Shown: positions 1,033 to 60,306 of the stretch, piece after piece | Layout of the letters: every line of letters begins with the position of its first letter | Position numbering within the stretch: position 1 is the stretch's first letter | Source of the DNA: Acorus gramineus | Taxonomy: Eukaryota; Streptophyta; Magnoliopsida; Acorales; Acoraceae | Direction of reading: 5' to 3' | DNA length: 64,000 nucleotides | Assembly (NCBI GenBank): GCA_030737835.1 | Contig: JAUJYN010000027.1 | Span: 1,426,001-1,490,000 of the forward strand | Program-made: the position numbers and the translations under genes | The notes under the pieces: generated by a model | The model's input: only the letters and a program-made list of their open reading frames with translations | Database searches by the model: none | What the model was told of the DNA's origin: nothing

Positions 1033-3472
1033 GCGCGTGAGCGTGCGCGTGCGCGCGGCAGCGCGTCTGGGCGCGCGGGCAGGCGCGCGGCAGTGCGCCG
1101 ATGGTGCTGGGGTGCGTGCGTGCGTGCGCATTCGTGCGTGCGCGTGCGGGGGGCCATGCGTGTGGCTGCCCGAGGGTTCGGGTAGGTGTCGGGGCACTCG
1201 GACTCGCGTGCGTACGTGCGTGCTCGCATGCGTGCGAGCCCGTATGCATGCTTGTCCGAGTATGGGGTATTTCTAATTATTTCTATGTATAAATTGTGTT
1301 GTTTCTCACCAGTTGGATGCCCCTACCTTGCAGATCTCGTCGGATGGGATGCGCGAGGTCCCGGGTTGTAAGGTGAGTGGTTTGATTCCAATCCCCCCCC
1401 CCTCTCTAGGGATGCGCTCGACCCGCGTAGACGCGCGTCGCGCATCGATGGGGCCCCCTAACTAATATGTAGATATTTTGCATGCTAGGGATATACATCC
1501 ATGTATCGTGTATAGAAGCCCGTACATGCCTGGACACCATGTCCTGTACTTAAAAGCCTTGATCTATGCATGATTAATATGATGTATCCATGCCACCTTA
1601 GACTTGCATGTTAGGGATATGCACCCTTATGATATGTGTAAAGGCCCAAGCATCTTGATACCATGTTTTCATGCTAGGGAAGCCCCGACTATGCATGTTC
1701 CCATCTAATCTAATCTAATTAAATTAGAATGTGAGCATGCCTTAGAGAATATTGTAAGCTTGTGGTTATGATATATGTCTCCCTGCATCTTAGGGGATTA
1801 TGTGAGCATATAGTTGCAAGCATGCCTTAGAGAATATTATAACCTTGTTGTTATAACATATGTCTCCCCGCATCTTGGTTATGCGCCCTGGAGGAATTCT
1901 TGAGAATTCATGTCATTAGAAATGTTAGGAAGCGTTGTCGACGGATCCAAGAGGATCGCATCCGTGTGGGTAGGCTGTTTTTCTTCCCTTCGTTGGATCC
2001 GTGTAGGGACTCCTCAGCGTTAGACAGGCCGTCCTGACAGAGGGCTCCCATCAGTAGGCACCTCCTGATTTGGTTTCAGACTGTGCTGAATCGTGGGAGT
2101 AGACCAGGCGAGCTACGGAGTGGAGGAGAGGCTATCGGTGGACCAAGGGTGATTAACAGCCTAGTCAGTCCCAAAAGACCATGTTTACCCTGTGAGGGTG
2201 AGGGTGAGGGTTTGGTGGGTCGGCGATGTAGCGACCCATTGGATTGTGTAGTTGTTGTCACTTAGAGGCTATGAATACTTTGAGGTTAATATGAGTGTGT
2301 TGGTTTTTTGTTATGCATGTGTGTGATATCTCGATAAGCGAGTATCGAGAGTGGTTGTTCGAGTTGAGGAGATCGGGTTGTAGATACTACCCGGGAGAGG
2401 GTTAATGAATGATGTCGCGAGCGTGGAATCGTTCTCCCCTTTGTTGGATCCGTGTAGTGACATCCCCGGCGTTAGACAGGCTATCCTGACAGAGGGCTCC
2501 CATCAGTAGGCACCTCCTGATTTGGTTTCGGACTGTGCTGAATCGTGGGAGTATACCAGGTAGGCTACAGAGCGGGGAGAGGCTACCGGTGGACCAGGGG
2601 TGTAAAGCAGTCTAAGTCTCTCCCAAAGTCCCAAAATGTATCCTTTCAGGAGTGAGGGTGTGGATGAGGCGAAGACGCGTCGCCTCGTGACCCATTCGTT
2701 GTTCGACCATTCCCATAGATGTTGGGTCCGGTCTCGTGATGGATGTTGAAGGACATCGATGGGTGATTATCTAGATGCAGATGATCCAGTAGTGTTGAGT
2801 AGACCAGTAAATCCGGGTCTCTTCGACCGACGGCATGGTCTCTAGACCAGTAAATCCGGGTCTCTTCGACCGACGGTATGGTCTCTCCCCATAAGTCCCA
2901 AAAGACTCCCTCCGGGAGTGAGGGTGGGGGTGAGGTTGGTCGCGCCGCCGCGTGACCCAGTGATCCTTTGGGTTTCTACCCATGTTTTTCCTTGAAGAAG
3001 GGAACTGATTATGTTTTGAACTGTAGAATGGTGATTGGTTTCCAGCCACTCACTGAGCTTGTAGCTCACCCCTCGCATACTGTTTCTTTTCAGGGGCAGT
3101 GTTGGGCGTGGAGCTGGAGCTTTCCTGTGGCGTGGTCTTATGGGCATGGAGCGTTCTGCCGGCGGGTGGCGAGTGCGAGGCTGTCAGCATTCCTAGAGTC
3201 TTTTATGCTTTGTAAATCGTGCATGTGGCACAGGTTGTATTTTCTTTGGTCTAGACTTGGCTTCCACAGGACATTGATTGTGTATTCAGGTCTGTAATAA
3301 TGTTTTTGATTTACAGACATTGTTATATATTATGCTTCCGCTTTTCAGTCAGTTATCATTATCTTGCTTTGCCGCCTTGTGTATTGTTGTTGGTGTCCTT
3401 ATTGACCTCAAGTATTGATAACTAATATTATATTTTATTTTCCCACGTCTCGGGGACGCCTGGGGCGTGACA
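1033..3472 (+). mobile_element. LTR-C/B type, middle and 3' part
   Basis: The segment starts inside the CpG-rich tract and runs through the TTGCAGATCT and GTGAGTGG boundaries (about 1329-1380), the stem-loop at 1411-1446, repeated GGATCC/GGTACC modules and the TTTCTTTTCAG site near 3090. It ends in GGGGCGTGACA at 3472. Its 3' half matches LTR-C (compare 54600-56753). The following bases CCACT should be one copy of its target duplication; the other lies outside the window. The missing 5' part is separated from it by the minus LTR-A at 1-1032. Confidence 0.8.
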
Positions 3473-6310: not shown

Positions 6311-6462
6311 TATGTACGCTTGTCCGAGTGTTGTGTATTTTTAGAGTATTTTTGGGATATATTGTGTATTTTACTCACCGAATTGACTACCCTATTTTGC
6401 AAATCTTGATGGACGGTCGCGCGACGACCCGGTTATCGGTGAGTGGGACAACCAACCCAATT

Positions 6463-6501
6463 GGGAGGCGCTATATGCACTTGGGCGTATACCGTCCTCC
6501 C
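6463..6501 (+). other. Conserved stem-loop (LTR-A2)
   Basis: The outer arms are GGGAGG (6463-6468) and CCTCCC (6496-6501). The inner arms are TATATGC and GCGTATA with one G-U pair, around an ACTTGG loop. It lies just downstream of the GTGAGTGG site. The same fold occurs at the same place in the other LTRs with different arm sequences. Confidence 0.6.
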
Positions 6502-6750
6502 CTGGGGCACCATAGTCTATATTAACTTGTGTAATATGTAATCCATGCAAGCATGATTAATATGTAGTATGCATGCTACCCTAGACCTTGTATGTTAGGG
6601 ACTTGCACCCTTAGGATATGTGTAAGAGCCATGCATCCTGTTACCCTGTTCTCATGGTAGGAAGCCTCGACCATGCATGTGTCCTACTAGTTTAATTTAT
6701 TAAATTAAATGTTAGCATATGATTATTAGCATGCCTTAGATAATATTATA

Positions 6751-6948: not shown

Positions 6949-9244
6949 ATGACATTAGAGTTGTTGAGATGTGTTGTCGGCGGATCCGAGTGGATCATAT
7001 GTTTATGGATAGGCTATTCTGTTCCCTTCGTTGGATCCGTGTAGAGACTGCCCCAGCGTTAGAAAGGCCGTCCCGTGAGAGGGCTCCAATCAGTAGGCAC
7101 CTCCTGATTTGGGACGGACTGTGCTGAATGTGGGAGTGGCAAAGCGGCTACGGAGCGGAGGAGAGACTATCGGTGGACCAAGGGTGACCAACAGCCTAGT
7201 CAGTCCCAATATCCTATGTCACCATACTGAGGGGAGAGGGTGAGGGTGTGGTGGGTAGGCGACGTAGTGACCCACTGGTTTGTGTAGTCAGTCCCAATAT
7301 CCTATGTCACCATATTGAGGGGTGAGGGTGAGGGTGTAGTGGGTCGGCGATATAGCGACCCACTGGATTGTTTAGTTCCTGCCACTTTGAGGCTTGATTA
7401 ATGAGATTGTGGTTAATAATTTATAGTGGTTAATATAAATTGTGATGCATGGGTTGTGCTGTTCACTGAGCGTGTGGCTCACCCCTCGCATATATTTTTC
7501 TCTAGTGTTATCTGAGTCGGATCTGGAGGAGGAGCTCCCCGAGGGACTTCATCAGTAGCGGAGCAGCGCCACGTCCCGCGAGTTTTAGAGGCTATCAGCA
7601 TCCCTTTTGATTGTATGTATTATATTCCGTGCTTGGGCATGCGTTTGTATTATATTTGGATGTCGTTGTATATATTGGCTCTCACAAGACAGTTGATTAT
7701 GTATCGAGTCTGTAATATGTCTTTGAGTTATAGATTCAGTCTTTTAGCTTCCGCTATTCGTGTATATATCATGTCAGCCTCATTGTTGTCTGTGTTGAAA
7801 TTGTTGATGTTGTTTAGGGTATATTATTGACCTCCTGTTTAGACTGCAAGTATCATATATACACTTGCCGCGTCCCGGGGACGGCCGCCCTGGGGCGTGA
7901 CACGCGCGCCCGCGCGCACCGCGCGTCCAGCCCACGCGCCCCCCGCACAGCACCTCGCGCACGCCCCAGCACGCGCACGCATGCGCACAGGACAGTTGAT
8001 TATGTATCGAGTCTGTAATATGTCTTTGAGTTACGGATTCAGTCTTTTAGCTTCCGCTATCTGTGTATATATCATGTCAGCCTTGCTTTCGTCTGTGTTG
8101 TCATTTTAGTTGTTGTTCAGGGTATGTTATTGATCTCCTGTATTGACTGCTGATATCATGTATACACTTGCCGCATCCCGGGAACGGCCGCCCTGGGGCG
8201 TGACACGCTCACCCTTTAGGGGTGTCATGGGTCCTTTGGGACAGACTAGACCGCTCTCCACCCCTGGTCCACCCGGTAGCCTCTCCCACCCTCGTGGCCT
8301 CCGCCTGGTATACTCCCACTATCAGTACAGTCCGACGCATCGGAGGTACCTACGGATCGGAGCCCTCTGTCAGGTACAGCCAACGCCGGGGAGTTCCTAC
8401 ATCGGATCCAACCAAAAGGAGAAGACAGCCCACTCACGCGCGTACGATCCTGTTGGATCCGTCGACAACGATTTCTAACACTACTAATGTCATGAATTCT
8501 CAAGAATTCCTCCAGGGCGCATAACTAAGATGCGGGGAAACATATATTATAACCACAAGGTTATAATATTCTCTAAGGCATGCTTACAACAATATAATCA
8601 CATAATCCCATCTTGATTTAAATAAATTAAACTAAATGGGAAACATGCGTAGGTCGGGGCTTTCAAATCAAGGGACAAGGTGACTAAACATGCATAGGCC
8701 GCTATACATGATATAAGGGTGCATATCCCTAGCATACAAAGTCTAAGGTGGCATGGATATATCATATTAATCATGCATGCATAGCTTTTACATATTATAG
8801 CTAGGGGGCCCCATCGATGCGCGACGCGCGTCTATGCGGGTCGAGCGCATCCCTAGAGAGGGGGGGGATTGGAATCAAACCACTCACCATACGACCCGGG
8901 ACCTCGCGCATCCCATCCGACGAGATCTGCAAGGTAGGGGCATCGAATTTGGTGAGTAACAACACAATTTACACATAGAAAACATTAGAAATGTTATATA
9001 TGTGTCACTTTTAGCCTGCTGGTAACTGTTAGAGCGTTCTGGCAGTTTTTCGGTTTTTCGATCGGAACCGCAAATTTTTTGGACTGTTAGCCATCGTCTA
9101 AGCTAGAGGACTCCGATTGGAAATCTAACTGTATATTTGGTGTCCTGGTGCCATTTTAGACCTCTCACGAAAATTTCATCGAATTCCGGTAACGTTCCCA
9201 AAATTTCACAGTTCCGGGGCGTATCCGAGTTTTTAAGTCGCACA

Positions 9245-10870: not shown

Positions 10871-11026
10871 CCGAGTGTTAGGTGTTTAGTTGTGGGTTTT
10901 GTATGTTTGTGTGTTTTAGAGTATTTATGTATCGTTCTCACCATATTGAATGTTTGTCTTGCAGATCTGGACGGACGGTCGCGCGACGACCCAGATACCC
11001 GGTGAGTGGGACAATCCAACCCAATA

Positions 11027-11065
11027 GAGAGGCGTTATACGCACTTGGGCGTATACCGACCTCTC
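11027..11065 (+). other. Conserved stem-loop (LTR-A2), changed in both outer arms
   Basis: Outer arms GAGAGG and CCTCTC; inner arms TATACGC and GCGTATA around ACTTGG. Compared with 6463-6501, the outer pair changed on both sides (GGGAGG/CCTCCC to GAGAGG/CCTCTC) and the inner G-U pair is a C-G pair. Pairing is preserved. Confidence 0.65.
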
Positions 11066-11314
11066 CTGGGGCACCGTGGATTATATTAACCTGCAGTAAT
11101 ATGTAATCCATGCTTGTATGATGTACATGTAGAATGCATGCTACCCTAGGCTTTTATGTTAGGGACTTGCACCCATAGGATAGGTGTGAGAGCCATGCAC
11201 CATGTCCCCCTGTTTTCATGCTAGGAAACCTCGGCCTATGCATGCGTCCTACTAGTTTATTTATTAAATTAAATGCAGGTGTATGTTAAATCGCATGCCT
11301 TAGATAATATTATA

Positions 11315-15441: not shown

Positions 15442-16946
15442 ACAATAACCTATGCTTAACTATAGGGGTTCTCCCTAACATGAGTATATGGCATAAAAAA
15501 CACATCATGCAACATACATACAAGGCAAGGCCTAACTACACATACATATGAGGGCACTAATCGTATAAACATAAAAAATATACTCTAACATGCGTTGGAT
15601 ATCACCAACTTAAAAGAAAGGGTCAAGCGCGATCTCGCGCACTAATAGGTGCATGCCAATATTCCAAACGAACCTGAGTCGAGTAGGAAATTGCATCTAC
15701 TTACTCAGTTCGTTCAGAGGGAGAGGGCGAGAGAGATCATCATCTCATGAAGCTGGTCATAGCTTTGCCCCATTAGCATGGGCGCAACAACTACACCACG
15801 CCCTCGAGTCTTATCGCAAGGGAATATTAGGCAGGTGCCCGTTATTAACCCAGACTTAATCATATTGGATATTCCAATTAATATGGTGAGAGTAGTATTA
15901 CAATACTACCTAAGGCATGCCATATTCTATACATCCATACACATTATCAAAAATACATGCCCATACTAGAGGGGCTCATGCAACACAATCATTCATGCAT
16001 GAATACAATACATGTATATAAGCCTAGCATGCAAGATATCTACATATTATAGCTTAAGCATGGCCATACTACTTATCTACACAAGTAGTATAGCTAGGGG
16101 GACCCATCGATGCGCGACGCGCGACTACGCGCGTCGAGCGCATCCCGAGGGGGGGGATTGCATCGAACCACTCACCGCAACCTGGGACCTCACGCATCCC
16201 ATCCAACGAGATCTTCAAGGTAAGGGCATCAAATTTGGTGAGTAACATCATAATTTAACACTTAGAAATCACTAAAATTACCAAAGACTTAGACATTCAC
16301 GCATACGGGCTGGCACGCATGAGAGCACGCGCGTACACACGCATGCCCAAGTGCCCTAGCACCTACCCGAGCCCCTGGCCATCCCCACGCATGCCCCAGC
16401 ACGCGCACGCACGCATGCGCACGCACGCGCGCGCGCCCACTGGCACCCAGCCGAACGCCAAGGCGCACTGCCCCGCACGCGCGCATGCTCGCGCACCCGG
16501 CTCGCTGCCAGCGTCCGCGCGCACGCGCGTGCCCGCACCTGCCAGCGCCCCTCTGCGCACGCGCCTGCGCGCGCACGCGCGTAGACAGACCTATGCGCGC
16601 ACCCAGCCATTCCTAACCCTACCCCCCTTGCCCCTACATTCACCCAACTCAAAACACCTCACATGCATGCCCTCCCAAACACCCTAACATGCATAAAAGC
16701 CAATTAAAGAAGAGGGAAACTCACCAAAAGAGAGTGGGAGGGAAGGGGCAGATGTAGGGGCTCTCAAATGCACCCTTGACCACCTCTACCTCCACCACCA
16801 CTACCACCACCTCCATCTTTGCTTCTCTTCTTCATGGCTGAACCAATGGGGAGGGGAAAGAAAATAAGGAGATCCACCATGGGAGGAGGAGAGGGAGGAG
16901 AAACAATCAATAACACAAGCACACACACTCACCTAGATTTGCACTT
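15442..16946 (-). mobile_element. LTR-B, middle and 5' part, incomplete
   Basis: Matches the solo LTR-B at 36861-40442 in the opposite sense: the stretch around 15600-16220 mirrors 38100-38750, including the stem-loop (about 16107-16147) and CCTTGCAG-type boundary. It carries a CpG-rich tract at about 16290-16620 and a GGTGG/CCACC-rich leader. The LTR-D at its left inserted into it. At its right it stops where a plus-strand retroelement leader begins. Confidence 0.75.
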
Positions 16947-18890: not shown

Positions 18891-19033
18891 TGTCCGAGTA
18901 TTGGGTATTTCTAGTAAATTTCGTGTGTATTTGTGTAGTTTACTCACCATATTGAATGCCCATGTCTTGCAGATCTTGACGGACGGTCACGCAACAACCC
19001 GGGTTTCGGTGAGTGGGACAATCCAACCCAGTA

Positions 19034-19073
19034 GGGAGGCGTTCGATGCACGTAGGCGTGCATTGCCCTTCCC
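19034..19073 (+). other. Conserved stem-loop (LTR-A)
   Basis: Inner arms ATGCACG (19046-19052) and CGTGCAT (19057-19063) around TAGG. The outer arms, GGGAGG and a CCTTCCC stretch, pair less neatly. The inner arms share no sequence with those of LTR-A2 or LTR-B, yet they are complementary. Confidence 0.6.
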
Positions 19074-19680
19074 TGGGGCACCATAATTGTATATTAACTT
19101 GTGATAAATGAAAAAAACTGTGTATGCATGTTTTAATATGATGTAACCATGCCACATTAGACCTTGTATGCTAGGGATATGCACCCATATATCATGTATA
19201 GAGGCCCATACATGCCTAGCCACCATGTTCCATGATTGGAAAGCCCCGATCTATGCATGCTTCCCATTTAGTTAATTTAATTAAATCAAAATGAGATTAT
19301 ATTGTTATAAGCATGCATTAGAGAATATTATAACCTTGTTGTTATAATATATGTTTCCCCGCATCTTAGTTATTCACCCTGGAGGAATTCTTGAGAATTC
19401 GTGACATTAGTAGTGTTACAAATCGTTGTCGACGGATCCAAGAGGATCGTATCCGTGTGAGCAGGCTGTCTTCTCCCTTTGGTTGGATCCGAGTAGGGAC
19501 TCCCTGGCGTTGGAAAGCTGACCTAACAGAGGGCTCCCATCTGTAGGTACCTCCGATGCGTCAGACAGTGCTGATCGTGGGAGTATACCAGGTAGAGGCT
19601 ACGGAGTGTGGGAGAGGCTACCGGGTGGACCAAGGGAGGAGAGCAGTCTAGTTTGAAAAGGCCCATGTCACCCCCTTAAA

Positions 19681-20982: not shown

Positions 20983-22265
20983 TGTTGTGCCTGTGTCATT
21001 TGGAGCGCTCCGATTGAAAATTTGGTTACATAATTTTTTTTCTTTCTCCCAGAAGTTATGTATTTCCAATTTGGTATTTGGATTTGATTTTGTTAAAATC
21101 CCCGATGAAGAGGTTTAAATATGATTTTATTATGAGATGTCCAGTTTTGAGTTAGCTTTCGTACAAAAGTGGAATTAGGGCAGCGCGTCTGGGCGCGCGG
21201 GCAGGCGCGTGGCAGTGCGCCGAGGGTGCTGGGGTGCGTGCGTGTGTGCGTATGCGTGCGTGCGCGTGCGGGGGGCCATGCGTGTGGCTGCCCGAGGGTT
21301 CGGGTAGGTGTCGGGGCACTCGGACTCGCGTGCGTACGTGCGTGCTCGCATGCGTGCGAGTCCGTATGCATGCTTGTCCGAGTATTGGATAGTTCTAATG
21401 ATTTCTATGTGTAAATTGTGTTGTTACTCACCAAGTTGGATGCCCCTGCCTTGCAGATCTCGTCGGATGGGATGGGCGAGGTCCCGGGTCGTATGGTGAG
21501 TGGTTCGATTCCAATCTCCCCCCCCCCCTCTCTAGGGATGCGCTCGACCCGCATAGACGCGCGTCGCGCATCGATGGGGCCCCCTAGCTATAATATGAGG
21601 ATACTATGTAATGCATCATTAATATGATGTAACCATGCCATATTAGACCTGGTATGCTAGGGATATGCATCCGTGATACATGTATAGAGGCCCATACATG
21701 CCTAGACACCATGTCCCTTGATTGGAAAGCCCCGATCTATGCATGTTTCCCATTTAGTTTAATTTAATTAAATCAAAATGAGAGCATATTGTTATAAGCA
21801 TGCCTTAGAGAATATTATAACCTTGTTGTTATAATATATGTTTCCCCGCATCTTAGTTATGCGCCCTGGAGGAATTCTTGAGAATTCATGACATTAGTAG
21901 TGTTAGAAATCGTTGTCGACGGATCCAAGAGGATCGTATACGCGTGAGTAGGCTGTCTTCTCCTTTTGGTTGGATCCGAGTAGGGACTCCCCGGCGTTGG
22001 AAAGCTGACCTGACAGAGGGCTCCTATCTGTAGGTACCTCCGATGCGTCGGACAGTGCTGATCGTGGGAGTATACCAGGTAGAGGCTACGAAGTGTGGGA
22101 GAGGCTACCGGGTGGACCAGGGGTGGAGAGCAGTCTAGTCTGCCCCAAGAGGCCCATGTCACCCCTAAAGGGTGAGGGTGGGGTGGGTCGGCGATGTTAC
22201 GACCCACTAACTTGTGTAGTTACTCCCGTATAGGGACTATGACTATTTTAAGGTTAATATGAGTG
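20983..22265 (+). mobile_element. LTR-C, incomplete, inserted in gag
   Basis: Starts TGTTGTGCCTGTGTCATTTG at 20983, directly after gag sequence that reads TTCTA, and ends within the LTR body. It includes a short CpG tract (about 21178-21380), TTGCAGATCT (near 21454), GTGAGTGG (near 21494), stem-loop and the GAATTCTTGAGAATTC dyad. It is incomplete, so no target duplication can be checked. Confidence 0.75.
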
Positions 22266-22292: not shown

Positions 22293-24852
22293 TGTTATAT
22301 ATGTGTCACTTTTAGCCTTTTGGTCACCTATGGGACATTTCTGGCCGTTTTCCAATTTTTCTTTTTCGATCGGAACCGCTAAAATTTTGGACGTTTAGCT
22401 ATCTTCATGAGCTTGAGAACTCCGATTGAAAATCTAACTGCACATTATGTGTCCTGGTGCCATTTCGAGCCACCCATGAAAATTTCATCGAATTCCGGTA
22501 ATGTTTTAGAATTTGGCAGTTCTGAATCGTATCCGGGTTTTGACCGAGTGGGAATGTCAAGGGGGGACTTGACCAAGTCAAAGAAGACTTGGACCAAGTC
22601 AAATTTGACCATTGACTTGGTCAAATGGTTTTGTTTTTTTGTGTGGTTGGGTTGACTCAAAGTCAATCCCCACCAACCCAAATTGTTCCAAGTGTGTGAG
22701 TGTGTGTGTGTGTGTGTGTGGCCCTATTTGTGGGCGTCTCCCCCTTAGTCCCCATCTCCATCTCTCTCACTCACTCCATCCCCCTCTCCCTCTTCTTATT
22801 TGCTTCCATTAGAGGTAGTAGAAGGAGAAGAAAAAGAAAACCCTAGAAGGGAAAAAGAAAGGTATGTGTGTGATCTACCTTTGTATGGTTTTTGTTTTGA
22901 TTTCCCCTTTCTCTACCTCCCTCTCATGGCTTTCCCCCACCCCTGTTTTCAGCCATCTTTAGGCCTTGTGAGTGGCTGAGGTGGTGGTGGTCTTGGTGGT
23001 GGCGGTTGTGGTGGTTTGGTGCGCGAAGGGCACCCGAGCTTCCTCCCTTTTCCTTCCCCTCCTTGTTGGTAAGTCTTCCTCCTCCCTTAGCTTGTTTAGA
23101 TGATTGATTAGGGTGTTTAGGTGGTTATGCATTCTTTGCATAGGAGGGGGTGTGGGTGGGCTAAAAAGGGGGTGGAAGGGGCTCGGGCGCGCGTGCGTTG
23201 CGCGCGCAGACGGGTGCGCGCGCGTACGCGCAGACGAGCGGGCGTGCGCGCGGGGGCGCAGTGCCCGCGGGTACGCGATGGGCTGGACACGCGGGGGCGT
23301 GCGAGCATGCGCGCGCGCGCGGCAGCGCGTCTGGGCGCGTGGGCAGGGGCGCAGCAGTGCGCCAGGGGCGCTAGGGCGCATGCGTGCGTGCGCATTGGTG
23401 CGTGCGCGTGCGGGGGGCCATGCGTATGGGTGCCCGAGGGTTCAGGAGGGTGTCGGGGCACTCGGACTCGCGTGCGTACGTGCGTGCTCGCATGCGTGCG
23501 AGTCTGTATGCATGCTTGTCCGAGTATTGGGTATTTCTAGTAAATTTCGTGTGTATTTGTGTAGTTTACTCACCATATTGAATGCCCATGTCTTGCAGAT
23601 CTTGACGGACGGTCACGCAACGACCCGGGTTTCAGTGAGTGGGACAATCCAACCCAGTAGGGAGGTGTTCGATGCACGTAGGCGTGCATTGCCCTTCCCT
23701 GGGGCACCATAATTGTATATTAACTTGTGATAAATGAAAAAAACTTGATGTAACCATGCCACATTAGACCTTGTGTGCTAGGAGTATGCATCCATATATC
23801 ATGTATAGAGACCCATACATGCCTAGACACCATGTTCCATGATTGGAAAGCCCGATCTATGCATGCTTCCCATTTAGTTTAATTTAATTAAATCAAAATG
23901 AGAACATATTGTTATAAGCATGCCTTAGGGAATATTATAACCTTGTGGTTATGATATATGTTTCCCCGCATCTTAGTTATGTGCCCTGGAGGAATTTTTG
24001 AGAATTCATGACATTAGTAGTGTTACAAATCGTTGTCGACGGATCCAAGAGGATCGTATCCGTGTGAGTAGGCTGTCTTCTCCCTTTGGTTGGATCCGAT
24101 TAGGGACTCCCTGGCGTTGGAAAGCTGACCTAACAGAGGGCTCCCATCTGTAGGTACCTCCGATGCGTCGGACAGTGCTGATCGTGGGAGTATACTAGGT
24201 AGAGGCTACGGAGTGTGGGAGAGGCTACCGGGTGGACCAAGGGAGGAGAGCAGTCTAGTCTGAAAAGGCCCATGTCACCCCCTTAAAGGGTGAGGGTGAG
24301 GGTGGGGTGGGTTGGCGATGTTACGACCCACTAACTTGTGTAGTTGCTCCCGTTTAGGAACTATAATTATTTAAGGTTAATATGAGTTGTGTTGCATAGA
24401 TTGTGCCATTCACTGAGCGTGTGGCTCACCCCTCGCATATTCTTTTCCTCCAGTTGTATCTGAGTCGGATCTGAAAGAGGAGCTCCCCGAGGCATCACAG
24501 CAGTAGCGGAGCAGCGTCACGTTTTGGGTTCTGCGAGTGAGAGGCCATCAGCATCCCCTTCTTGATTGTATGTATTGTTATCCGTGCTTGGGCACACACT
24601 TGTATTTGGCTGTCATTGTTTATATTGGCTCTCACATGACAGTGGATTATGTATTCGGGTCTGTAATATGTCTTTGAATTACAGACTCAGTCGTTTAAGC
24701 TTCCGCTATATGTATATATATTATGTCAGCTACATTATTGTCTGTGTTGTCATTTTCGATGTTGGTTAGAGTATTTTATTGATCTCCTGTATAGACTGCT
24801 GATATTATATATATTTGCCACGTATCGGGGACGGCTGCCCTGGGGCGTGACA
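22293..24852 (+). mobile_element. 3' LTR of the LTR-A element
   Basis: Complete, from TGTTATATATGTGTCAC to GGGGCGTGACA (2,560 bp). It is followed directly by older plus-strand Gypsy pol sequence, the insertion host. It carries the same intron-like boundaries, dyad, stem-loop and G-rich block as its partner. Confidence 0.92.
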
Positions 24853-30834: not shown

Positions 30835-30856
30835 CTCTCTCTCTCTCTCTCTCTCT
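30835..30856 (-). repeat. (GA)n microsatellite downstream of the LTR-E promoter
   Basis: Eleven CT units on the plus strand, repeated at 36306-36327 in the other LTR. GAGA runs just after the start site are common in plant leaders. Confidence 0.8.
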
Positions 30857-36860: not shown

Positions 36861-39800
36861 TGTTATGCCTGTGTCATTTGGAGCCATTTCGGTTAAGCCT
36901 TGGTCACTTCTGGGTCATTCAGGGCCTTTTTAATTTTTTGATCGGAGCCGCTAAAATTTTGGCTTTTAGCCACCTGCGGGAGTTAGAGTACTCTGATTGG
37001 AAATCTGACTGCATATTATGGGTTTTGGTACCATTTAGTACTACCCATAAAAATTTCATCGAATTCCGGTAACGTTTGGAAAAATATGCAGTTCCAAATC
37101 GTATCTGGGTTTTTGAGAGTTCCTAGTTTGATTAGTTGAATAGTGTGAGATATTTTGGTGAATGTGGTGACCTTGGGTAACCTTACCCCCCTTTGCTTAA
37201 TGATGAAGCAACCATTTGGCTATTTGAAGTGTTAGTGGGTGAGTTTAGGTTAGGTTCACCCCCTCATTTTTCCATTACACTCACCCCCCCCCCCCCAAGA
37301 GTGGAAAAATCTCTCTCTCTCTCTCTCCCTCTCCCACTCCCTACGTGGACTCCTCTTGGGCTCTCTTTCTCTCTTTCACACACATCCCCCATGTGTTTGT
37401 GTTAAAGCCTCAAAGAGAAGAGAAAGAGAAGGTGAAGGAGGAAGAGCAAGGTTTGTGTAGGTGTTGTTGTTGTTGTTGATTCTCCTCTCTCTAGCTCCCT
37501 TTACATGTCTTTCCCTCCTCTGTTTTTCAGCCAAGAAGGGCTGGTGAGAGGCTGAAGAGGAGGCGTGGTGGTGGTGGTGGTTGAGGTGGCCATGGGCGCG
37601 TCGAGAGCTCCGCATCTCCCTCTTTCCCTTTCCCTCTTTTGGTAAGTCCTCTTCCCCTTCTTCTTGATTTTTAGGACTGTTGGGATGGTTGGGGAGGTCA
37701 TGCATGCTAGGTAGATGGGTTAGAGTGTGTGTGAGGGGTTGGGGAGGGTTAAAAAGGGGTTAAGGATGGCTGGGCGCGCGCAGGGGCCTATCTGCGCGCG
37801 CAGAGGGGCGCTGGCAGGCGCAGGCGGGCGCACAGGCGTGCACGTGTGCATGCGGGCGGGTGCGCGCAGACGCTGGCAGGGAGCGGGGCGCGCGCGCGTG
37901 CGTGCGCGTGCTGGGGCATGCGTGGGGCTGGCCAGGGGCTCGGGTAGGTGCTGGGGCACTTGGGCATGCGTGCGTACGCGTGTGCTCGCATGCGTGCGAG
38001 CCCGTATGCGTGCATGTCTAAGTCTTTGGTAATTCTAGTGATTTCTAAGTGTTAAATTGTGATGTTACTCACCAAATTTGATGCCCTTACCTTGCAGATC
38101 TTGTCGGATGGGATGCGCGAGGTCCCGGGTTGCGGTGAGTGGTTCGATCCAATCCCCCCCCCCCCCTCTCGAGATGCGCTCGACGCGCGTAGTCGCGCGT
38201 CGCGCATCGATGGGGCCCCCTAGCTATACTACTTGTGTAGATAAGTAGTATGGCCATGCTTAAGCTATAATATGTAGATATCTTGCATGCTAGGCTTATA
38301 TACATGTATTGTATTCATGTATGAATGATTGTGTTGCATGAGCCCCTCTAGTATGGGCATGTATTTTTGGTAATGTGTATGGATGTATAGAATATGGCAT
38401 GCCTTAGGTAGTATTGTAATACTACTCCCACCATATTAATTGGAATATCCAGCATGAATAAGTCTGGGTTAATAACGGGCACCTGCCTAATATTCCCTTG
38501 CGATAAGACTCGAGGGCGTGGTGTAGTTGTTGCGCCCATGCTAATGGGGCAAAGCTATGACCAGCTTCATGAGATGATGATCTCTCTCGCCCTCTCCCTC
38601 TGAACGAACTGAGTAAGTAGACGCGATTTCCTACTCGACTCAGGTTCGTTTGGAATATTGGCATGCACCTGTTAGTGCACGAGATCGCGTTTGACCCTTT
38701 CTTTTAAGTTGGCGATATCCAACGCATGCTTAAGTTAGGCTTTGTGTGCTTATGTGATTAATGACCATGTATGCATGTTGTATGATTTATTATGATGTAA
38801 ATCCATGTTAGGGAGTGTCCCTATAATTATTAGATGATTGTGCATATGGTTCATGCACATAGCTAGATATAATTCTCCTGGATATATTTATATGCGCATG
38901 TTAAAAAACTGATAGGCCTATCTGAAATAGGCGTGGGTATGACTTGCTGTCGGGTTGTACCTTATTAGTTAGAGTGCTAGCGATGTAATCGTCCTGTGCA
39001 TCCGAGCGATGCACTAGTTTGGAATCCAGGAGAATTCGTTACCTTATCGGTTTGGTTAAGCCGGTAGTGGGGCATTAGGGTAAGCCTACCCGTACTAGGC
39101 GTGTATATGAACCGCCTGTCGGGTTATGTGCCTTGGGATTATTTCTGCGTGAGAGCAGAGGCAACCCCCTTGTGTCCGAGCGACGCAACCGTGTGGGAGT
39201 ACAATAGTGTTCGCTCTCTTCGATATGTGATTATCCAGAGTAGTTGATTTCCATGGGTTTGCTTTGCGAATATGGAATGTTTACTCCCAATGTCGTCCGT
39301 GTTGAAGAGGCCCGGGTTGTAGCTGTCCTGACAGAGGGCTCCCATCCGTAGGTACCACCGATGCGTTCGGGGGCGTACTGATCGTGGGAGTGTACCAGGT
39401 AGAGGCTACCTGGGAGAGGGCTAACGAATGATATTGCGAGCGTGGAATCGTTCTCCCCTTCGTTGGATCCGATGTAGGAACTTTTCGGCGTTGGAAAAGA
39501 TGTCTTGGCAGAGGGCTTCCATTCGTAGGTACCACCGAGGCGTTTGAAAGCGTACTGATCGTGGGAGTATAGTAGGTAGTGACTACCCGGGGAAAGGGCT
39601 ACCGGTGGACCAAGGGTGTAGAGCAGTCTAAGTCTCTTCCAAAAGTCCCAAGAGTCTCCCTCCGGGAGTGAGGGTGAGGATGAGGTGAAGACACATCGCC
39701 GCGTGACCCATTCGTTGTTCGTCCGTTCCCAAAGTTGTTGGGTCCGGTTGCGTATTGATGTTCAAAGACATCGTTGGGCAGTTATCTCGATGTAGATGAT

Positions 39801-43552: not shown

Positions 43553-43590
43553 GGATGCGCTCGACCCGCATAGACGCGCGTCGCGCATCG
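43553..43590 (+). other. Conserved stem-loop (LTR-C)
   Basis: Outer GATGCG and CGCATC pair perfectly. Inner arms GACCCGCA and CGCGCGTC pair with two weak positions. Same place relative to GTGAGTGG as in the other types. Confidence 0.5.
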
Positions 43591-45912: not shown

Positions 45913-48163
45913 ACTTTTGTCACTCCCCAGGGCGGCCGTCTCCGAGACGCGACAATGGTATATATAATATCAGCAGTCTATACAAGAGATCAATAACATA
46001 CTCTAAACAACATCAAAAATAACAACACAGACAATAAAGCAGCTGACATAATATATACAAATAGCGGAAGCTCAAACGACTGAGTCTGTAATTCAAAGAC
46101 ATATTACAGACCCGATACATAATCAACTGTCCTGTGAGAGCCAATATATACAACGACATCCAAATAATATACAAACGTGTGCCCAAGCACGGAATACAAT
46201 ACATACAATCAAGAAGGGGATGTTGATGGCCTCTCACTCGCAGAACGTGACGCTGCTCCGCTACTGCTGATGTGCCTCGGGGAGCTCCTCCTTCAGATCC
46301 GACTCAGATATCACTGGAGAAAAATATATGCGAGGGGTGAGCCACACGCTCAGTGAATAGCACAACCCATGCATCACAATTCATATTAACCTCAATTAAT
46401 TATAGCCCCTAACACGGGAGCAACAACACATTCTAGTGGGCCGTCTCATCGCCAACCCACTTTCCTCCCCTCACCCTCACCCTTTCCGAGGGGTGACATG
46501 GGCCTCTTGGGGCATACTAGACCGCTCTCCACCCCTGGTCCACCCGGTAGCCCTTTCCCACCCTCGTAGCCTCGACCTAGTCCACTCCAACTACCAGTAC
46601 TGTCCGAACACATCGGAGGTACCAGACGGAAGCCCTCTGTCAGGTCAGCCATCGCCGAGGAGTACCTACATCGGATCCAACCAATAAGGAGAAGACAGCC
46701 TACTCACACGGATACGATCCTCATGGATCCGTCGACACCGATGGTAACGCTAAATAATGTCATGAATTCACAAGAATTCCTCCAGGGCGCATAACTAAGA
46801 TGCGGGGAGACATATATTATAACAACAAGGTTATAATATTCTCTAAGGCATGCTCACATTGATTTAATTAAATTAAACTAGGTGGGAGACATGCACAGAT
46901 CGGGGCAAGCTGTCTAAGCATCCATAGGCCTCTATACATGATGTAAGGGTGCGTATCCCTAGCATACAAATCTAAGGTGGCATGGATACATCATATTAAT
47001 CAATATAAGGGTGCATATCCCTAGCATGCAAGTCTAGGTGGCATGGATACAACATAATATTCATGCAAAGCATAGTTTACATTTAATACTAGCTAATATG
47101 CAACTATGGTGCCCCAGGGGAGGGCAATGCACGCCTACGTGCATCGAACGCCTCCCTACTGGGTTGGATTGTCCCACTCACCAAAACCCGGGTCATCGCG
47201 TGACCGCCCGTCAAGATCTGCAAGACATGGGTAATCAAAATGGTGAGTAATTACACAAATACATAAGAAATACGCTAGAAATACCCAACACTCGGACAAG
47301 CATGCATACGGGCCTGCACGCACGCGAGTCCGAGTGCCCCGACATCCTCCCGCACCCACGGCAGCCATGCGCACGGCCACCCGCACGCGCACGCACGGGT
47401 GCGCAAGCACGCACGCACTCCCAAGCCCCGGGCGCACTGCCGCGCCCCAGCCCGCGCGCCCAGACTCGCTGCTGCGCCCCTGCCCACGCTCCCAGACACG
47501 CTGCCGCGCTCCCGCGTGCACCGCGTGTCCAGCCCTTCATCTACCCGCGCGTACTGCGCCCCTGCGCAGCACCCCGCGCGCGCGCCCGCCAGCGCACCCG
47601 TCTGCGCCCGCCAGCGCCTGCCTGCGTGCAGACTCGCGTGCACGCGCACGGATGACCTTGCACGCACGCCCGAGCCCTTCCCACCACCACCGTCAGCCTT
47701 CCCACACCCCTAACACACATGCATACCATGCATACTCCATGTTATATATGTGTCACTTTTAGCCTTATGGTAACCATTGGAGCATTCTGGCAATTTTTGA
47801 GTTTTTTCGTTTTTCGATCGGAAACGCAAAATTTTTGGACTGTTAGCTATCGTCCTGTGTTTGAGGACTCCGATTGAAAATCTAATTGTATATTATGTGT
47901 CTTGGTGCCATTTTAAACCACTCACGAAAATTTCATCGAATTCCGGTAACGTTTCAGAATTTCATAGTTCTGAGGCGTATCCGGGTTTTGACCGAGCGAG
48001 AAGTCATTGGGAGAGTTGACTCTGTCAAAGTGGGCCCATGACTTGGTCAACCCCTTTTGTTTTTATTTGTGGTTGGGTTGACCCAAGCCAAAACCCACTT
48101 TAACTCACCAAATCCTCACTTAAACCTAATTAATCCTCTCTTAACCCTAATCTAAGTGAGGGA

Positions 48164-49350: not shown

Positions 49351-49502
49351 CTTGTCTGAGTGTTGGGTATTTTAGCGTATTTTTGTGTATTTTTGTGGTA
49401 TTTGTGTATGTTACTCACCAAGTTAATTACCCTGTCTTACAGATCTTGACGAACGGTCGCGCGACGACCCGGTTACCGGTGAGTGGGACAACCCAACCCA
49501 GT

Positions 49503-49541
49503 TGGGAGGTGCTATATGCACTTGGGCGTATACCGTCCTCC
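49503..49541 (+). other. Conserved stem-loop (LTR-A2)
   Basis: GGGAGG and CCTCCC outer arms; TATATGC and GCGTATA inner arms around ACTTGG, as at 6463-6501. Confidence 0.55.
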
Positions 49542-49676
49542 CCTGGGGCAGCATAGTTAATATTAACTGATTAATATGTAAGCATGATTAATGTGTAGAA
49601 TGCATGCGTCCTATTAGTTTGATTTATTAAATTAAATGCAAGCTTATGATATTGTTAGCATGCCTTAGGGAATATA

Positions 49677-51898: not shown

Positions 51899-52769
51899 GT
51901 AAATGGTTAGGCATGCTATGGATGGGTGTTAGGGGGTGTGGGAGGGCTGAGGAGGGGGTGGAAGGGGCTCGGGCGCGCGTGCGGAGTCATCCGCGCGCGT
52001 GCGCGCATGTTTGCACTGGCTGGGGCGTGCGCGCGGGTATGCACTGGCTGGGGCGTGCACGTGGGTATGCACTGGCTGGGGAGTGCGCGCGGGTATGCAC
52101 TGGCTGGGCGCGCGGTGCGCGCGGGCGCTTGCGAGCGTGCGCGCGCGCGCGGCAGCGCGTCTGGGCAAGCGAGCAGGGGCGCGGCTGTGTGCCAGGGGCG
52201 CAGGGGCGCGTGCGGGCGTGCGCATTCATGCGTGCGCGTGCGGGGGGCCATGCGTATGGCTGCCTGGGGGTTTGGGAGGGTGTCAGGGCACTCGGACTCG
52301 CGTGTGTACGCGCGTGCTCGCATGCGTGTGGGTCTGTATGCATGCTTGTCCGAGTGTTGGGTATTTCTAGTAAATTTCTTATGTATTTGTGTTGTTTACT
52401 CACCATATTCAATGCCCATGTCTTGCAGATCTTGAGGGACGGTCACGCAACGACCCGGGTTTCGGTGAGTGGGACAATCCAACCCAGTAGGGAGGCGTTC
52501 GATGCACGTAGGCGTGCATTGCCCTCCGCTGGGACACCATAATTGTGTATTAACCTGTAATAAATGTAAAACTATGCAATGCATGATTAATATGTTGTAT
52601 CCATGCCACATTAGACTTCGTATGCTAGGGATATGCACCCTTATATCATATATGGAGGCCTATGCATGTCTAGACACCATGTCCCCTAATTGGAAAGCCC
52701 CGAACTATGTATGTTCCCATCTAGTTTAATCTAATTAAATCAAAATGAGAGCATATAGTTATAAGCATG
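51899..52769 (+). mobile_element. LTR-A, middle part
   Basis: Begins inside the leader (GTAAATGGTT, as near 58647), then CpG tract (about 51960-52350), TTGCAGATCT near 52423, GTGAGTGG near 52465, the ATGCACG/CGTGCAT stem-loop, and on to TTATAAGCATG. The minus element 45312-51898 sits in front of it. Its 3' end is replaced by LTR-D sequence. Confidence 0.75.
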
Positions 52770-53226: not shown

Positions 53227-56200
53227 TATTGTGCCTGTGTCATTTGGAGCACTCTGATTAAAAATTTGGCTACATAATTTTTCTCCTCGAAATTATGTAT
53301 TTCTGATTTGGTATTTGGATTTGATTTTGTTAAAATCCAAGATGAAGAGGTTTAAATATGATTTTATTATGAGATGTCCAGTTTTGAGTTAGCTTTCGTA
53401 CAAAAGTGGAATTAGGTCAACTGGATTCATGTAGTAAAAGTTATGGGTATTTTACCAAGTATACCCCGGGGAGGGAAATTCTGGCAGCAGCCCTGTTCTA
53501 TGTTTAGCTCTAATTTCGGAATAGCTGGAGAGATTATTTGATCTTGGCATAAACATGAAAGTTGTAGATAATCTTCTTGGCTTTCCAACGGAATTGGAAT
53601 TGTGCAATTAGGAGCTATATTGAGGAAGTTATGGTTGTTCTAGTGAAGCTTGTACAGAATTTCAAGTCAAAGGATGATTTGGTCATTTGTATCCCCTCTT
53701 TAGATATTTGTGTGCAAACAAATATCTTCTCTCTCTCTCTCTCTCCCTCTCACTTCCACGCCCATTTTTCTTGGCCCTCTCTTCCTTTTTCTCAAGCCCC
53801 CCAAGTGTTTGATATATCTCCTCAATGAGATGGAGAAGGAGATGGTGCTAGTGCAAGAGGAGCTTGTGTAGGTTTTGTTGTTGTTGTTGATCTCCTCTCT
53901 CTCAAGCTCCTCTCATATCTTGTTCTCCCCCCCCCCTTGATTTGCAGCCAAGAAGGGCTGAGGAGACTCCGAAGAGGTGGTGGTGGTGGTGGTGGTTGAG
54001 GCGGCCGTGGGGGCGTCGAGAGCCCCGCATCTCCCCCTTTTCGTTTCCCTCTTTTGGTAAGTCCCCTTCCCCTTCTTTTTTATTTTTAGGGTTGTTGGGA
54101 TAGTTAGGGTGTTCATGCATGCTATGCATATGGGTTAGGGTGTGTGTGAGGGTTGGGGAGGGTTAAAATGGGGTTAGGGTTGGCTGGGCAAGCATTGGGA
54201 GTTGTCTGCGCGCGTGCGCGCACAGACGGGCACTGGCAGGCGCGCAGCCCGCGTGCGCGCGGGTGCTGGTGCGAGCGGGGGCAGTGCGCCTGGGCATGCG
54301 CCTGGGCGCGGGGTTGGGGGCCGGTGCGCGCGTGCGCGTGCGTGCGCGTGCTGGGGCGTGCGCAGGGGTTCTGCGAGGGCGCGCGGGTAGGCGCGCGGCA
54401 GTGCACCGAGGGTGCTGGGGTGCGTGCGTGCGTGCGCATTCAGGGGGCCATGCGTGTGGCTGCTCCAGGGTTCGGGTAGGTGTCGGGGCACTCGGACTCG
54501 CGTGCGTACATGCGTGCTCGCATGCGTGCGAGTCCGTATGCATGCTTGTCCGAGTATTTGGTATTTCTAATGATTTCTATGTGTAAATTGTGTTGTTACT
54601 CACCAAGTTGGATGCCCCTACCTTGCAGATCTCGTCGGATGGGATGCGCGAGGTCCCGGGTCGTATGGTGAGTGGTTCGATTCCAATCCCCCCCCCTCTC
54701 TAGGGATGCGCTCGACCCGCGTAGACGCGTGTCGCGCATCGATGGGGCCCCCTAGCTATAATATGTAGATACTATGTAATGCATGATTAATATGATGTAA
54801 CCATGCCATATTAGACCTGGTATGCTATGGATATGCATCCATGATACATGTATAGAGGCCTATGCATGCCTAGACACCATGTCCCTTGATTGGAAAGCCC
54901 CAATCTATGCATGTTTCCCATTTAGTTTAATTTAATTAAATCAAAATGAGAATATATTGTTATAAGCATGCCTTAGAGAATATTATAACCTTGTTGTTAT
55001 AATATATGTTTCCCCGCATCTTAGTTATGCGCCCTGGAGGAATTCTTGAGAATTCATGACATTAGTAGTGTTAGAAATCGTTGTCGACAGATCCAAGAGG
55101 ATCGTATACGCGCGTGAGTAGGTTGTCTTCTCCTTTTGGTTGGATCCGAGTAGGGACTCCCCAGCGTTGGAAAGCTGACCTGACAGAAGGCTCCCATCTG
55201 TAGGTACCTCCGATGCGTCGGACAGTGCTGATCGTGGGAGTATACCAGGTAGAGGCTACGGAGTGTGGGAGAGGCTACCGGGTGGACCAGGGGTGGAGAG
55301 CAGTCTAGTCTGCCCCAAGAGGCCCATGTCACCCCTAAAGGGTGAGGGTGGGGTGGGTCGACGATGTTACGACCCACTAACTTGTGTAGTTACTCCCGTA
55401 TAGAGACTATGACTATTTTAAGGTTATTATGAGTGTGTTGATTGTTGTTATGCCTGTGTTTTGATATCTCGATAAGTGAGTATCGAGAGTAGTTTTTTCC
55501 ATTGGGTTCGCTCTGCTAACATGGGATCGTTCTCCCCTTCGTTGGATCCGATGTAGGAACTTCTCGGGTTTAGTTGTCCTAACAGAGGGCTCCCATCTGT
55601 AGGTACCACCGATGCATTCAGAAGAGTACTGATCATGGGAGTATACCAGGTAGAGGCTACCCAAGGAAAGGGCTACTGGCGGACCAAGGGTGTAGAGCGG
55701 TGAGTTGAGGAGATCGGGTTGTAGATACTACCCGGGAGAGGGTTAACGAATGATGTTACGGGCGTGGGAATCGTTCTCCCTTTTGGTTGGATCTGAGTAG
55801 GGACTCTCCGTTGTTGGAAAGCTGTCCAGACAGAGGGCTCCCATCTGTAGGTACCTCCGATGCGTCGGACAGTGCTGAACGTGGGAGTATACCAGGTAGA
55901 GGCTACGGAGTGTGGGAGAGGCTACCGGGTGGACCAGGGGTGTAGAGCAGTCTAAATCTCTTCCAAAAGTCCCAAAAGTCTCCCTCCAGGAGTGAGGGTA
56001 AGGATGAGGTGAAGAATATCGCCGCGTGACCCATTCGTTGTTCGACCGTTCCCATAGTTGTTGGGTCTGGTCATGAATCGATGTTTAAAGGCATCGTTTG
56101 AGCAATTATCTAGATGTAGATGATCCAGCAGTGTGGTGTAGACCAGTAAATCTGGGTCTCTTCGACCGACGGTCTGGTCTCTCCCCAAAAGTCCCTCCGG

Positions 56201-57579: not shown

Positions 57580-57619
57580 GATGCGCTCGATGCATGCACG
57601 TAGTCGTGCATCACGCATC
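57580..57619 (+). other. Conserved stem-loop (LTR-D)
   Basis: Outer GATGCG and CGCATC; inner ATGCACG and CGTGCAT around TAGT. Both parts pair perfectly. It combines the outer arms of B/C with the inner arms of LTR-A. Confidence 0.65.
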
Positions 57620-57831: not shown

Positions 57832-60306
57832 CGTTATATATGTGTCACTTTTTGCCTTCTGGTCACCTTTGGAACATTTCTGGCAGTTTTTCAACTTTTT
57901 TCTTTTTTGATCGGAACCGCTAAAATTTTGGACTTTTAGCTATCATCATGAGCTTGAGAACTCCGATTGAAAATCTAACTGCACATTATGTGTCCTGGTG
58001 CCATTTCAAACCACTCACGAAAATTTAATCAAATTCCGGTAACGTTTCAGAATTTCGCAGTTCTGAATCGTATCCGGGTTTTGACCGAGTGGGAATGTCA
58101 AAGGGAGACTTGACCAAGTCAAAGAGGACTTTGACCAAGTCAAGTTTGACCATTGACTTGGTCAAATGGTTTTGTTTGTTTGTGTGGTTGGGTTGACTCA
58201 AAGTCAAACACCAAAAACCCTAATTTTTTCTAAGTGTGTGAGTGTGTCTGTGTGTGTGTGGCCCTTTACGTGGGCGTCCACTTCTTCCCCTTCTCTTCAT
58301 CTCTCTCTCACACACAAAATCCTTTTCTCCCTCTTCTTATTTGCTTCCATTAGAGGTAGTAGGAGGTGAGGAAATAGAAAGTCATTGAAGGGAAAAAGAA
58401 AGGTAGGGTTCTGATCTACCTCTCCATGGTCTTTGTTTAGTTTTCCCCCTTGTTTACCTCCCTCTCATGGCTTCCCTTTCCCCCCCTGTTTTCAGCCATT
58501 TTAGGGCTGAGAGTGGTCTTGGTGGTGGTGGTCTTGGTGGTGGCGATTTGGTGCGCAAAGGGCACCCGAGTTCCTCCCTTTGTTCTTCCTCTCTTTGGGT
58601 AAGCCTTCCTCCTCCCTATGCTTGTTTAGATGCTTGTTTAGGGTGTGTAAATGGTTATGCATGTATGCATGGGTGTTGGGGGGGGGGGGGGGTGGGCTGA
58701 GGAGGGGGTGGAAAGGGCTCGGGCACGCGTGTGGAGTCATCCGCGCGCAGGCAGGCGCTGGCGTGCGCAGACGGGCGAGCTAGCGACCGCGCGCAGGCAG
58801 GGGTGCGGCGGTGCGCCAGGGGCCAGGGGCGCGTGCGGGCGTGCTCATTCGTGCGTACGCGTGCGGGGGGGCATGCGTATGGCTGCGCGAGGGTTCGGTA
58901 GGGTGTCGGGGCACTCGGACTCGCTTGCGTACGCGCGTGCTCGCATGCGTGCGGGTCCGTATGCATGCTTGTCCGAGTATTGGGTATTTCTAGTAAATTT
59001 CTTGTGTAGTTTACTCACCATATTGAATGCCCATGTCTTGCAGATCTTGACAGACGGTCACGCAACGACCCGGGTTTCGGTGAGTGGGACAATCCAACCC
59101 AGTAGGGAGGCGTTCGATGCACGTAGGCGTGCATTGCCCTCCCCTAGGGCACCATAATTGCATATTAACTAGTAATCAATGTAAACTATGCTATGCATGA
59201 TTAATATGATGTATCCATGCCACCTTAGACTTTGTATGCTAGGGATATGCACCATTATATCATGTATAGCGGCCTATGCATGTTTAGTCACCATGTCCCT
59301 TGATAGGAAAGCCCCGAACTATGCATGTTCCCATCTAGTTTAATCTAATTAAATCAAAATGAGAGCATTTAGTTATAAGCATGCCTTAGAGAATATTATA
59401 ACCTTGTTGTTATAATATATGTCTCCCCGCATCTTAGTTATGCGCCCTGGAGGAATTCTTGAGAATTCATGACATTAGTAGAGTTACAATCGGTGTCGAC
59501 GGATCCAAGAGGATCGTATCCGTGTGAGTAGGCTGTCTTCTCCTTTTGGTTGGATCCGATGTAGGGACTCCCCGGCGTTGGCTGGCCTGACAGAGGGCTC
59601 CCGTCCGTAGGTACCTCCGATGCGTCGGACTGTACTGATAGTGGGAGTATACCAGGTGGAGGCTACGGAGTGTGGGAGAGGCTACCGGGTGGACCAGGGG
59701 TGGAGAGCGGTCTAGTATGCCCCAAGAGGCCCATGTCACCCCCGGAAAGGGTGAGGGTGAGGGGGGAGGTGGGTTGGCGATGAAACGACCCACTAGAATG
59801 TGTTGTTGCTCCCGTGCTAGGGGCTATAAATTATATAAGGTTAATATGAATTGTGATGCATGGGTTGTGCTATTCACTGAGCATGTGGCTCACCCCTCGC
59901 ATATATTTTTCTCCAGTTATATCTGAGTCGGATCTGAAGGAGGAGCTCCCCGAGGCACATCAGCAGTAGCGGAGCAGCGTCACATTCTGCGAGTGAGAGG
60001 CCATCAGCATCCCCTTCTTGATTGTATGTATTGTATTCCGTGCTTGGGCACATACTTGTATTTGGATGTCATTGTGTATATTGGCTCTCATAGGACAGTT
60101 GATTATGTATCGGGTCTGTAATATGTCTTTGATATACAGACTCAGTCGTTTAAGATTCTGCTATTTGTATATATTATGTCAGCTACACTTATTGTCTGTG
60201 TTGTCATTTTTGATGTTGTTTAGAGTATGTTATTGATCTCCTGTATAGACTGCTGATATTATATATGTTTGCCACGCTTCAGGGACGGCCGCCCTGGGGC
60301 GTGACA
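57832..60306 (+). mobile_element. 5' LTR-A of the best-preserved coding element
   Basis: 2,475 bp from CGTTATATATGTGTCAC (first base changed) to GGGGCGTGACA. It carries the CpG tract (about 58720-58980), TTGCAGATCT near 59037, GTGAGTGG near 59080, stem-loop, GAATTCTTGAGAATTC near 59455 and TTCTCCAG near 59910. It is inserted in LTR-D. PBS and gag follow. The 3' LTR is not in the window. Confidence 0.92.

Follow-up and report, generated by a model that had tools for sequence, protein, structure and literature searches.

Shortly after GTGAGTGG, inside the LTRs of retrotransposons of Acorus gramineus, lies a nested hairpin whose arms differ between element types, and the comparison of genomic copies gives good support to the view that it is a selected RNA structure. 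A sequence-only reading of the window (the whole stretch of 64,000 nucleotides analysed here) had proposed selection for an RNA structure at this place, and the proposal is now upheld by pairing tests within classes, by tests in which arms were swapped between copies and by genomic evidence that the leader is transcribed. The leader in which the hairpin lies appears to have a two-intron arrangement, in which intron 1 is proven and intron 2 presumed.

The hairpin and its copies in the window

In the discovery copy, the hairpin occupies 11020..11070 of the plus strand and is made up of P1, P2, P2b and P3 with an apical loop ACTTGG. P1 pairs CCCAA with CTGGG (11020-11024/11066-11070), its innermost pair being A x C. 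P2 pairs GAGAGG with CCTCTC (11027-11032/11060-11065), P2b consists of CG/CG and P3 pairs TATACGC with GCGTATA (11036-11042/11049-11055), all on the plus strand.

A profile made from 13 obvious copies of the hairpin region gave 16 matches above 100 bits in the window (13 on the plus strand and three on the minus strand), plus one weak partial match. All 16 strong copies contain GTGAGTGG, with the stacked hairpin starting 10-33 nt downstream; the window contains 32 occurrences of the motif where 1.7 would be expected, many of them unrelated. Class A1 hairpins are located at 59098..59148 (in the reference LTR, with P3 ATGCACG/CGTGCAT), 19027..19077, 23653..23703 and 52483..52533 on the plus strand and at 47113..47163 on the minus strand, and class A2 hairpins at 6456..6506 and 49497..49547, both on the plus strand. 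Class B hairpins, consisting of P2 and P3, lie at 1411..1446, 21537..21572, 38173..38208 (GACGCGCG/CGCGCGTC), 43554..43589 and 54705..54740 on the plus strand and at 8816..8851 and 16109..16144 on the minus strand. The class C hairpin (57580..57619, plus strand, P2 and P3) has a longer inner arm, ATGCATGCACG.

The outer and inner inverted repeats that the earlier reading had described after GTGAGTGG both form as helices in 15 of the 16 minimum-energy folds. The exception is the class B copy at 16175 on the minus strand, where the arms of P2 are present at 16109..16144 and the minimum-energy fold retains the inner helix with another outer pairing. The paired stem-loop is confirmed and is larger than first described: three minus-strand copies are added, as is an outermost third helix, P1, which is found in most types (CCCAG/CTGGG in class A, CCCAT/GTGGG in class F, and AAGCC/GGCTT directly outside the class C hairpin of the 57554 copy). 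Of the nine start positions in the earlier reading, seven are exact and two are displaced by one or two bases, GGGAGG starting at 49504 and TATACGC at 11036.

Tests of pairing between the arms

Covariation between column pairs was assessed on 158 copies of all types by a G-test with APC against 40 tree-based null alignments, using a sequence-only alignment; this set, and that of the arm-swap tests, comprised 166 hits minus one short copy, five duplicates and two copies with broken hairpins (L025_7998 and L039). With all types together, the best pair reached E = 0.7 and none fell below E = 0.05, an outcome that the earlier reading had named as a refutation of its own proposal. It is not taken as refuting here, because the stems shift register between types, which costs power; the inner stem has i+j=163 in class A2 and i+j=167 in class A1.

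Tested separately, the classes cover 194 of 204 unique copies (211 profile hits minus the two at window positions 57502 and 3503 left 209, or 204 after removal of duplicates, with 10 'odd' copies excluded), and the null was obtained by re-evolving columns independently on each class tree in 500 replicates. In class A2 (87 copies, 20 pairs), the fraction of canonical cells was 0.980 against 0.929 expected (0/500) and there were 44 double-change cells against 6.8 expected (2/500). Classes A1/E/F (40 copies, 12 pairs, P1 and P3 only) gave 0.900 against 0.775 (2/500), and their 19 double-change cells against 7.7 are a marginal excess (31/500). For classes B/C/D (67 copies, 14 pairs, P2 and P3 only) the corresponding values were 0.908 against 0.807 (2/500) and 42 against 15.3 (4/500). 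When partners were slid by one base as a control, canonical cells were in excess in none of the three classes; in B/C/D, pairs with double changes and extra types were also high in this control (1/100 to 5/100), and weight is therefore placed on canonical cells.

On average, swapping arms between copies weakened the computed pairing at each level of grouping. Cognate arms gave -23.3 kcal/mol and non-cognate arms -19.8 kcal/mol among 42 representatives, and -22.7 against -19.3 kcal/mol among 19 clusters (0/20,000 permutations in both cases). For nine lineages, which are those of the 19 clusters with at least two copies, the ten single-copy clusters being excluded, the values were -28.3 and -22.3 kcal/mol (6/362,880 permutations). 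The more diverged the copies, the larger the mean swap penalty, which ranges from 0.8 to 4.8 kcal/mol. In 64-71% of single comparisons the cognate arms pair better; some non-cognate arms pair equally well or better.

Some changes pass through G-U: pair 74-89, compared in 65 class-A2 copies, is T-A in 57 of them, T-G in five and C-G in three. A comparison by eye of one copy, L166, with class A1 shows double changes at two places in P3. Six copies chosen for the 5' arm GTGAGG retain CCTCTC, which leaves a T x T mismatch.

Abundance and fold stability

The genome searched comprises 398.6 Mb in 137 contigs. The exact class-A string GTGAGTGGGACAATCCAACCC occurs 6,865 times in it, and TTGCAGATCT-N26..40-GTGAGTGGTT, representing classes B, C and D, 3,555 times. 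Measured against dinucleotide shuffles, the energy z-scores are -4.5, -1.5, -3.6, -2.7 and -2.7 for hairpins representing the five largest clusters, and -3.9, -1.4, -1.9, -1.6 and -1.9 for the antisense strands of the same five hairpins; five more clusters with one or two copies each range from -3.5 to +0.1. The hairpin was never ranked first for stability within the LTR, a segment at or just after GTGAGTGG being among the top eight in three of six scanned stretches, and the energy z-score, unexceptional within the LTR, was dropped as a hallmark of the element. Among the strongest z-scores within the LTR is that of the TTGACC/GGTCAA repeats at 58092-58181 (z -4.4), upstream of the presumed end of exon 1.

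Rfam gave no gathering hits in the window and no hits at E<=1 for 10930-11130, which matches no known RNA family, and no tRNA was matched. In class B, GGTTTGATTCC or GGTTCGATTCC spans the end of GTGAGTGG (1379-1389, 21502-21512 and 54674-54684), and a variable C tract of about 8-13 bases lies between this motif and the hairpin. Both motifs resemble a tRNA B box, a reading that was set aside for GGTTCGATTCC, which in class B follows the splice site but is missing from class A.

Splice anatomy of the LTR leader

An exon of 35-39 nt within the LTR appears to have its 5' splice site in GTGAGTGG. In the discovery copy, exon 2 (37 nt, 10965..11001, plus strand) is preceded by the branch-point-like TCTCACC and by TTGCAG, and is followed by GTGAGTGG at 11002..11009 on the same strand, the presumed donor site of intron 2. 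On the plus strand of the reference LTR copy, intron 1 (GTAAG ... TTGCAG) extends over 58599..59043 and the 36-nt exon 2 over 59044..59079, and intron 2 (GTGAGTGG ... GGCTCACCCC..TTTTTCTCCAG), whose splicing is presumed from its motifs, over 59080..59916.

Among 61 copies, exon 2 measures 36 nt in 42, 37 nt in 10, 39 nt in seven and 35 nt in two. It is preceded by TTGCAG, and about 20-28 nt ahead of that AG there is a branch-point-like motif, mostly ACTCACC, with the variants ACTTACC, ACTAACC and TCTCACC. In 17 of the 61 copies, a search reaching at most 900 nt upstream meets a GGTAAG donor at a distance of 445-882 nt. Downstream, GTGGCTCACCCCTCGCATATGTTTTTCCCCAG or a near variant is found at about 790-1,380 nt in most class-A copies, and within this range no GTGGCTCACCCCTCGCATATGTTTTTCCCCAG-like acceptor was found in class B. 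The upstream part of GTGGCTCACCCCTCGCATATGTTTTTCCCCAG falls in the best-conserved 40-base segment of the reference LTR (identity 0.92), and the motifs of intron 2 (GT..AG ends and branch point) exist and are conserved. The constancy of GTGAGTGG in the copies L001-L128 is no evidence, all of these having been picked by patterns that contain it: L009-L028 surround an exact GTGAGTGGGACAATCCAACCC, L029-L108 were taken to represent diverse forms of exon 2, and L109-L114 because their 5' arm is unusual.

A coding reading of exons 1-3 was rejected: in 20 exon-1 copies, the frame that it needs contains stops and has no methionine after the last of them, and the leader is for this reason treated as non-coding. 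When exons 2 and 3 are joined, many class-A copies read LDGRSRDDP..ESDLKEELPEAHQQ or ..TEPELEPEQQLELSEGFLQ followed by a stop (59044-59079 and 59917 onward; L001-L028), the position of the stop being constant across many of them, and length differences in exon 3 of class A2 are mostly multiples of six bases. Exon 2 substitutions number 107/88/153 by codon position in a hand tally. Exon 2 also contains a possible small hairpin (for example at 10977-10991), seen by eye, whose arms change together from type to type (GGTCG/CGACC, GGGA/TCCC and CCGGA/TCCGG). In the class C copy (56965-57553) the 3' splice site and the beginning of exon 2 are missing. A short distance ahead of the exon 2 remnant and GTGAGTGG, a tandem array with 22/34-base steps (56965-57507) comes to an end.

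Genomic copies that lack intron 1

A search of the genome with an exon 1-exon 2 junction pattern found 20 places, nearly all of class A2, and a second pattern found 23 further places with class B- and A1-type exons. In these 43 copies, intron 1 is exactly absent at GT..AG, and reversed-pattern controls gave 0, from which it follows that the leader has been transcribed, spliced and reverse-transcribed. To judge from these copies, intron 1 is a spliceosomal intron in the LTR.

All 43 run from exon 2 into intron 2, with GTGAGTGG exact in 36 and carrying one or two changes in seven, and the next 76 bases fold at -19.9 to -36.7 kcal/mol. Deletions inside the hairpin are seen by eye in two of them (L141 and L150), and another two (L130 and L131) lie on the same strand 5.1 kb apart, as expected for the two LTRs of one element. 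The exon-1 ends fall into nine groups at 20% divergence and 21 at 6%, so that several splicing-and-copying events are likely, even if later amplification accounts for some of the copies.

The exon 2-exon 3 junction was sought with three patterns, for A-type exons only, and was found in 0 genomic copies. For the unspliced class-A2 donor pattern there are 4,692 matches, compared with 33 for its control, and for one class-A2 exon-3 acceptor pattern 2,880, compared with 0. Equal splicing rates would give about 12 exon 2-exon 3 copies, or fewer if counted as events. Intron 2 may therefore seldom or never be spliced, on a comparison with intron 1 that becomes weak once the 43 copies shrink to perhaps nine events.

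Identity of the host elements

The reference LTR (57832..60306, plus strand) is 2475 nt long and is followed at 60312 by the primer binding site TGGTATCAGAGC, which we take to be the complement of the tRNA-iMet primer. LTRs start with TGTTATATATG and finish with GTGACA, after which comes TGGTATCAGAGC. Reading frames for gag, protease, RT and RNase H follow at 60795-63549 on the plus strand, with domain matches to gag, RVP_2, RVT_1 and RNase H. In two class-A1 elements, L016 and L017 (8 of 15 frames scanned), Retrotrans_gag, RVT_1, RNase H, Integrase_H2C2 and SH3_Tf2-1 are above cut-off, as is RVP_2 in L017; rve (integrase core) is under its curated cut-off in both, and Chromo is matched in L016 only, at 21.6 bits against a cut-off of 25.1. 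With gag, protease, RT-RNase H and integrase in this order, TG..CA LTRs and a primer binding site, the elements are Ty3/gypsy LTR retrotransposons with apparently gag-only relatives, and they are probably chromoviruses.

Class-A2 elements have internal regions of 2.8-3.2 kb, with gag in four of five elements and pol in none of the five (7 of 22 reading frames of at least 110 aa scanned), and these apparently gag-only elements bear the same hairpin. Elements with LTRs and gag that lack pol are called TR-GAG; class A2 resembles them in having LTRs, a primer binding site and gag, with no pol seen in the frames scanned. Elsewhere in the window, two direct 2.76-kb copies with 99.5% identity (28576-31327 and 34044-36798) lie in AT-rich sequence (GC 0.27-0.41) and are probably the LTRs of another, young element.

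Possible function and alternative explanations

As to its function, the reading that we favour, tentatively, is that the hairpin marks unspliced RNA for packaging and reverse transcription. The hairpin opens intron 2 and would thus be carried only by RNA that retains intron 2; such RNA would be the genome to be packaged and reverse-transcribed, and spliced RNA would be the messenger. In this scheme intron 2 would be spliced in some RNAs, as only then is the hairpin absent from spliced RNA, and the hairpin would be the retained signal. Like a packaging signal, it lies downstream of a presumed splice donor and its arms pair. A more elaborate version, which we hold to be possible though doubtful, sees in the second intron the passport of the genome, with a fast-evolving paired 5' hairpin as the packaging signal: RNA that has lost intron 1 would still be copied, RNA that has lost intron 2 would not, and gag-only parasites would keep the hairpin so as to be packaged by autonomous relatives.

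The earlier reading had listed packaging, dimerisation and splicing control as possible roles of the structure. Splicing control, in which the hairpin would lower or tune use of the neighbouring 5' splice site and thereby keep the intron in a sufficient share of the genomic RNA, requires no contact with Gag; the constant place directly after GTGAGTGG suits it, and it accounts equally for intron-1-less copies without any exon 2-exon 3 junctions found, but the computed folds begin downstream of the splice site and are silent on whether the site is paired. We regard it as somewhat unlikely. The position just after the 5' splice site fits packaging and splicing control, which sequence alone does not separate, and the retention of the hairpin among spliced-and-copied leaders fits both alike. 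Dimerisation fared worse: by inspection, the apical loops UAGN and ACUUGG are not palindromic or self-complementary, which makes kissing-loop dimerisation unlikely.

Paired arms could also arise as a copying artefact with no function, if template switching in reverse transcription re-templated one arm from the other (quasi-palindrome correction). Such a process would suit the findings that whole arms differ between types and that the inner stem shifts register (163 in A2, 167 in A1), but single-pair changes through G-U also occur, nested helices with internal loops are maintained, and inherited mismatches survive (A x A in P2 of class D; C x C at a single pair of P3, seen in 11 of 91 copies), which counts against it because correction should erase them. 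We consider this explanation improbable. The arms are palindromic and CpG-rich, as they would be in a dyad bound by a transcription factor or chromatin protein and acting on DNA, which the earlier reading had also raised. Selection on plus-strand RNA would tolerate G-U as an intermediate and would not tolerate A-C. Entries into the two states were alike in the larger set (62 G-U against 48 A-C, p = 0.21), as for a strand-symmetric site, and in an earlier, smaller set (16 against 12 on internal branches, 34 against 30 on terminal ones); class A2 alone gave 27 against 12 (p = 0.02). This asymmetry, not significant overall, was rejected as proof of RNA. Returns to Watson-Crick pairs numbered 27 from G-U and four from A-C (Fisher p = 4e-5), in a count that treats inherited states as independent and takes ancestral states from parsimony guesses; cell totals were 168 G-U and 74 A-C, with equal numbers (23 and 23) in A1/E/F. 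The returns favour selection on RNA over selection on DNA, and the dyad is further disfavoured by arm sequences that change between types, leaving no fixed binding site, and by its position in the transcribed leader. A protein-bound DNA dyad is in our view very improbable.

Relation to known systems

In retroviruses, the packaging signal psi sits downstream of the major splice donor. Retroviruses select unspliced RNA for packaging (excerpts of PMC7599994 and PMC9142903). In the excerpted text of PMC4558846, psi is described as conserved only as a secondary structure and hence difficult to identify, and the excerpt of PMC3601003 links conservation in long R regions to stem-loops. By analogy, psi and the LTR hairpin would both be stem-loops just 3' of a leader 5' splice site and confined to unspliced RNA. 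They differ in that the splice site and the hairpin are here part of the LTR itself, with some 1.3-1.9 kb separating them from the downstream primer binding site, and in that the palindromic loop is absent here.

A comparison among plant LTR elements is offered by BARE of barley, which is a Ty1/copia element. According to the excerpt of PMC3735527, BARE has separate RNA pools for translation and packaging as well as a gag-deficient parasite, and its authors state that spliced RNA must stay out of packaging and that DNA copies of it could not be amplified. The BARE intron differs from those described here, being 104 nt long and situated at the end of gag, outside the LTR, and no hairpin of the GTGAGTGG-adjacent kind appears in that excerpt (PMC3735527). 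The palindromic repeated motifs of Sireviruses are likewise conserved dyads in non-coding DNA of plant LTR elements, but lie in the LTR upstream of the TATA box, most with a fixed CGG-CCG core (excerpt of PMC2829016). Identity of the hairpin with them was rejected, as its arms vary between types and sit in the transcribed leader. Among the matches listed from open-licence papers, neither introns inside a plant LTR nor this hairpin were reported.

LTR retrotransposons do not readily reveal their packaging signals. The thousands of copies in this one genome amount to a natural experiment in compensatory mutation, and the fossil spliced copies preserve a record of the leader RNAs that underwent reverse transcription; compensatory changes and fossils together make the separation of messenger and genome by an LTR element testable.
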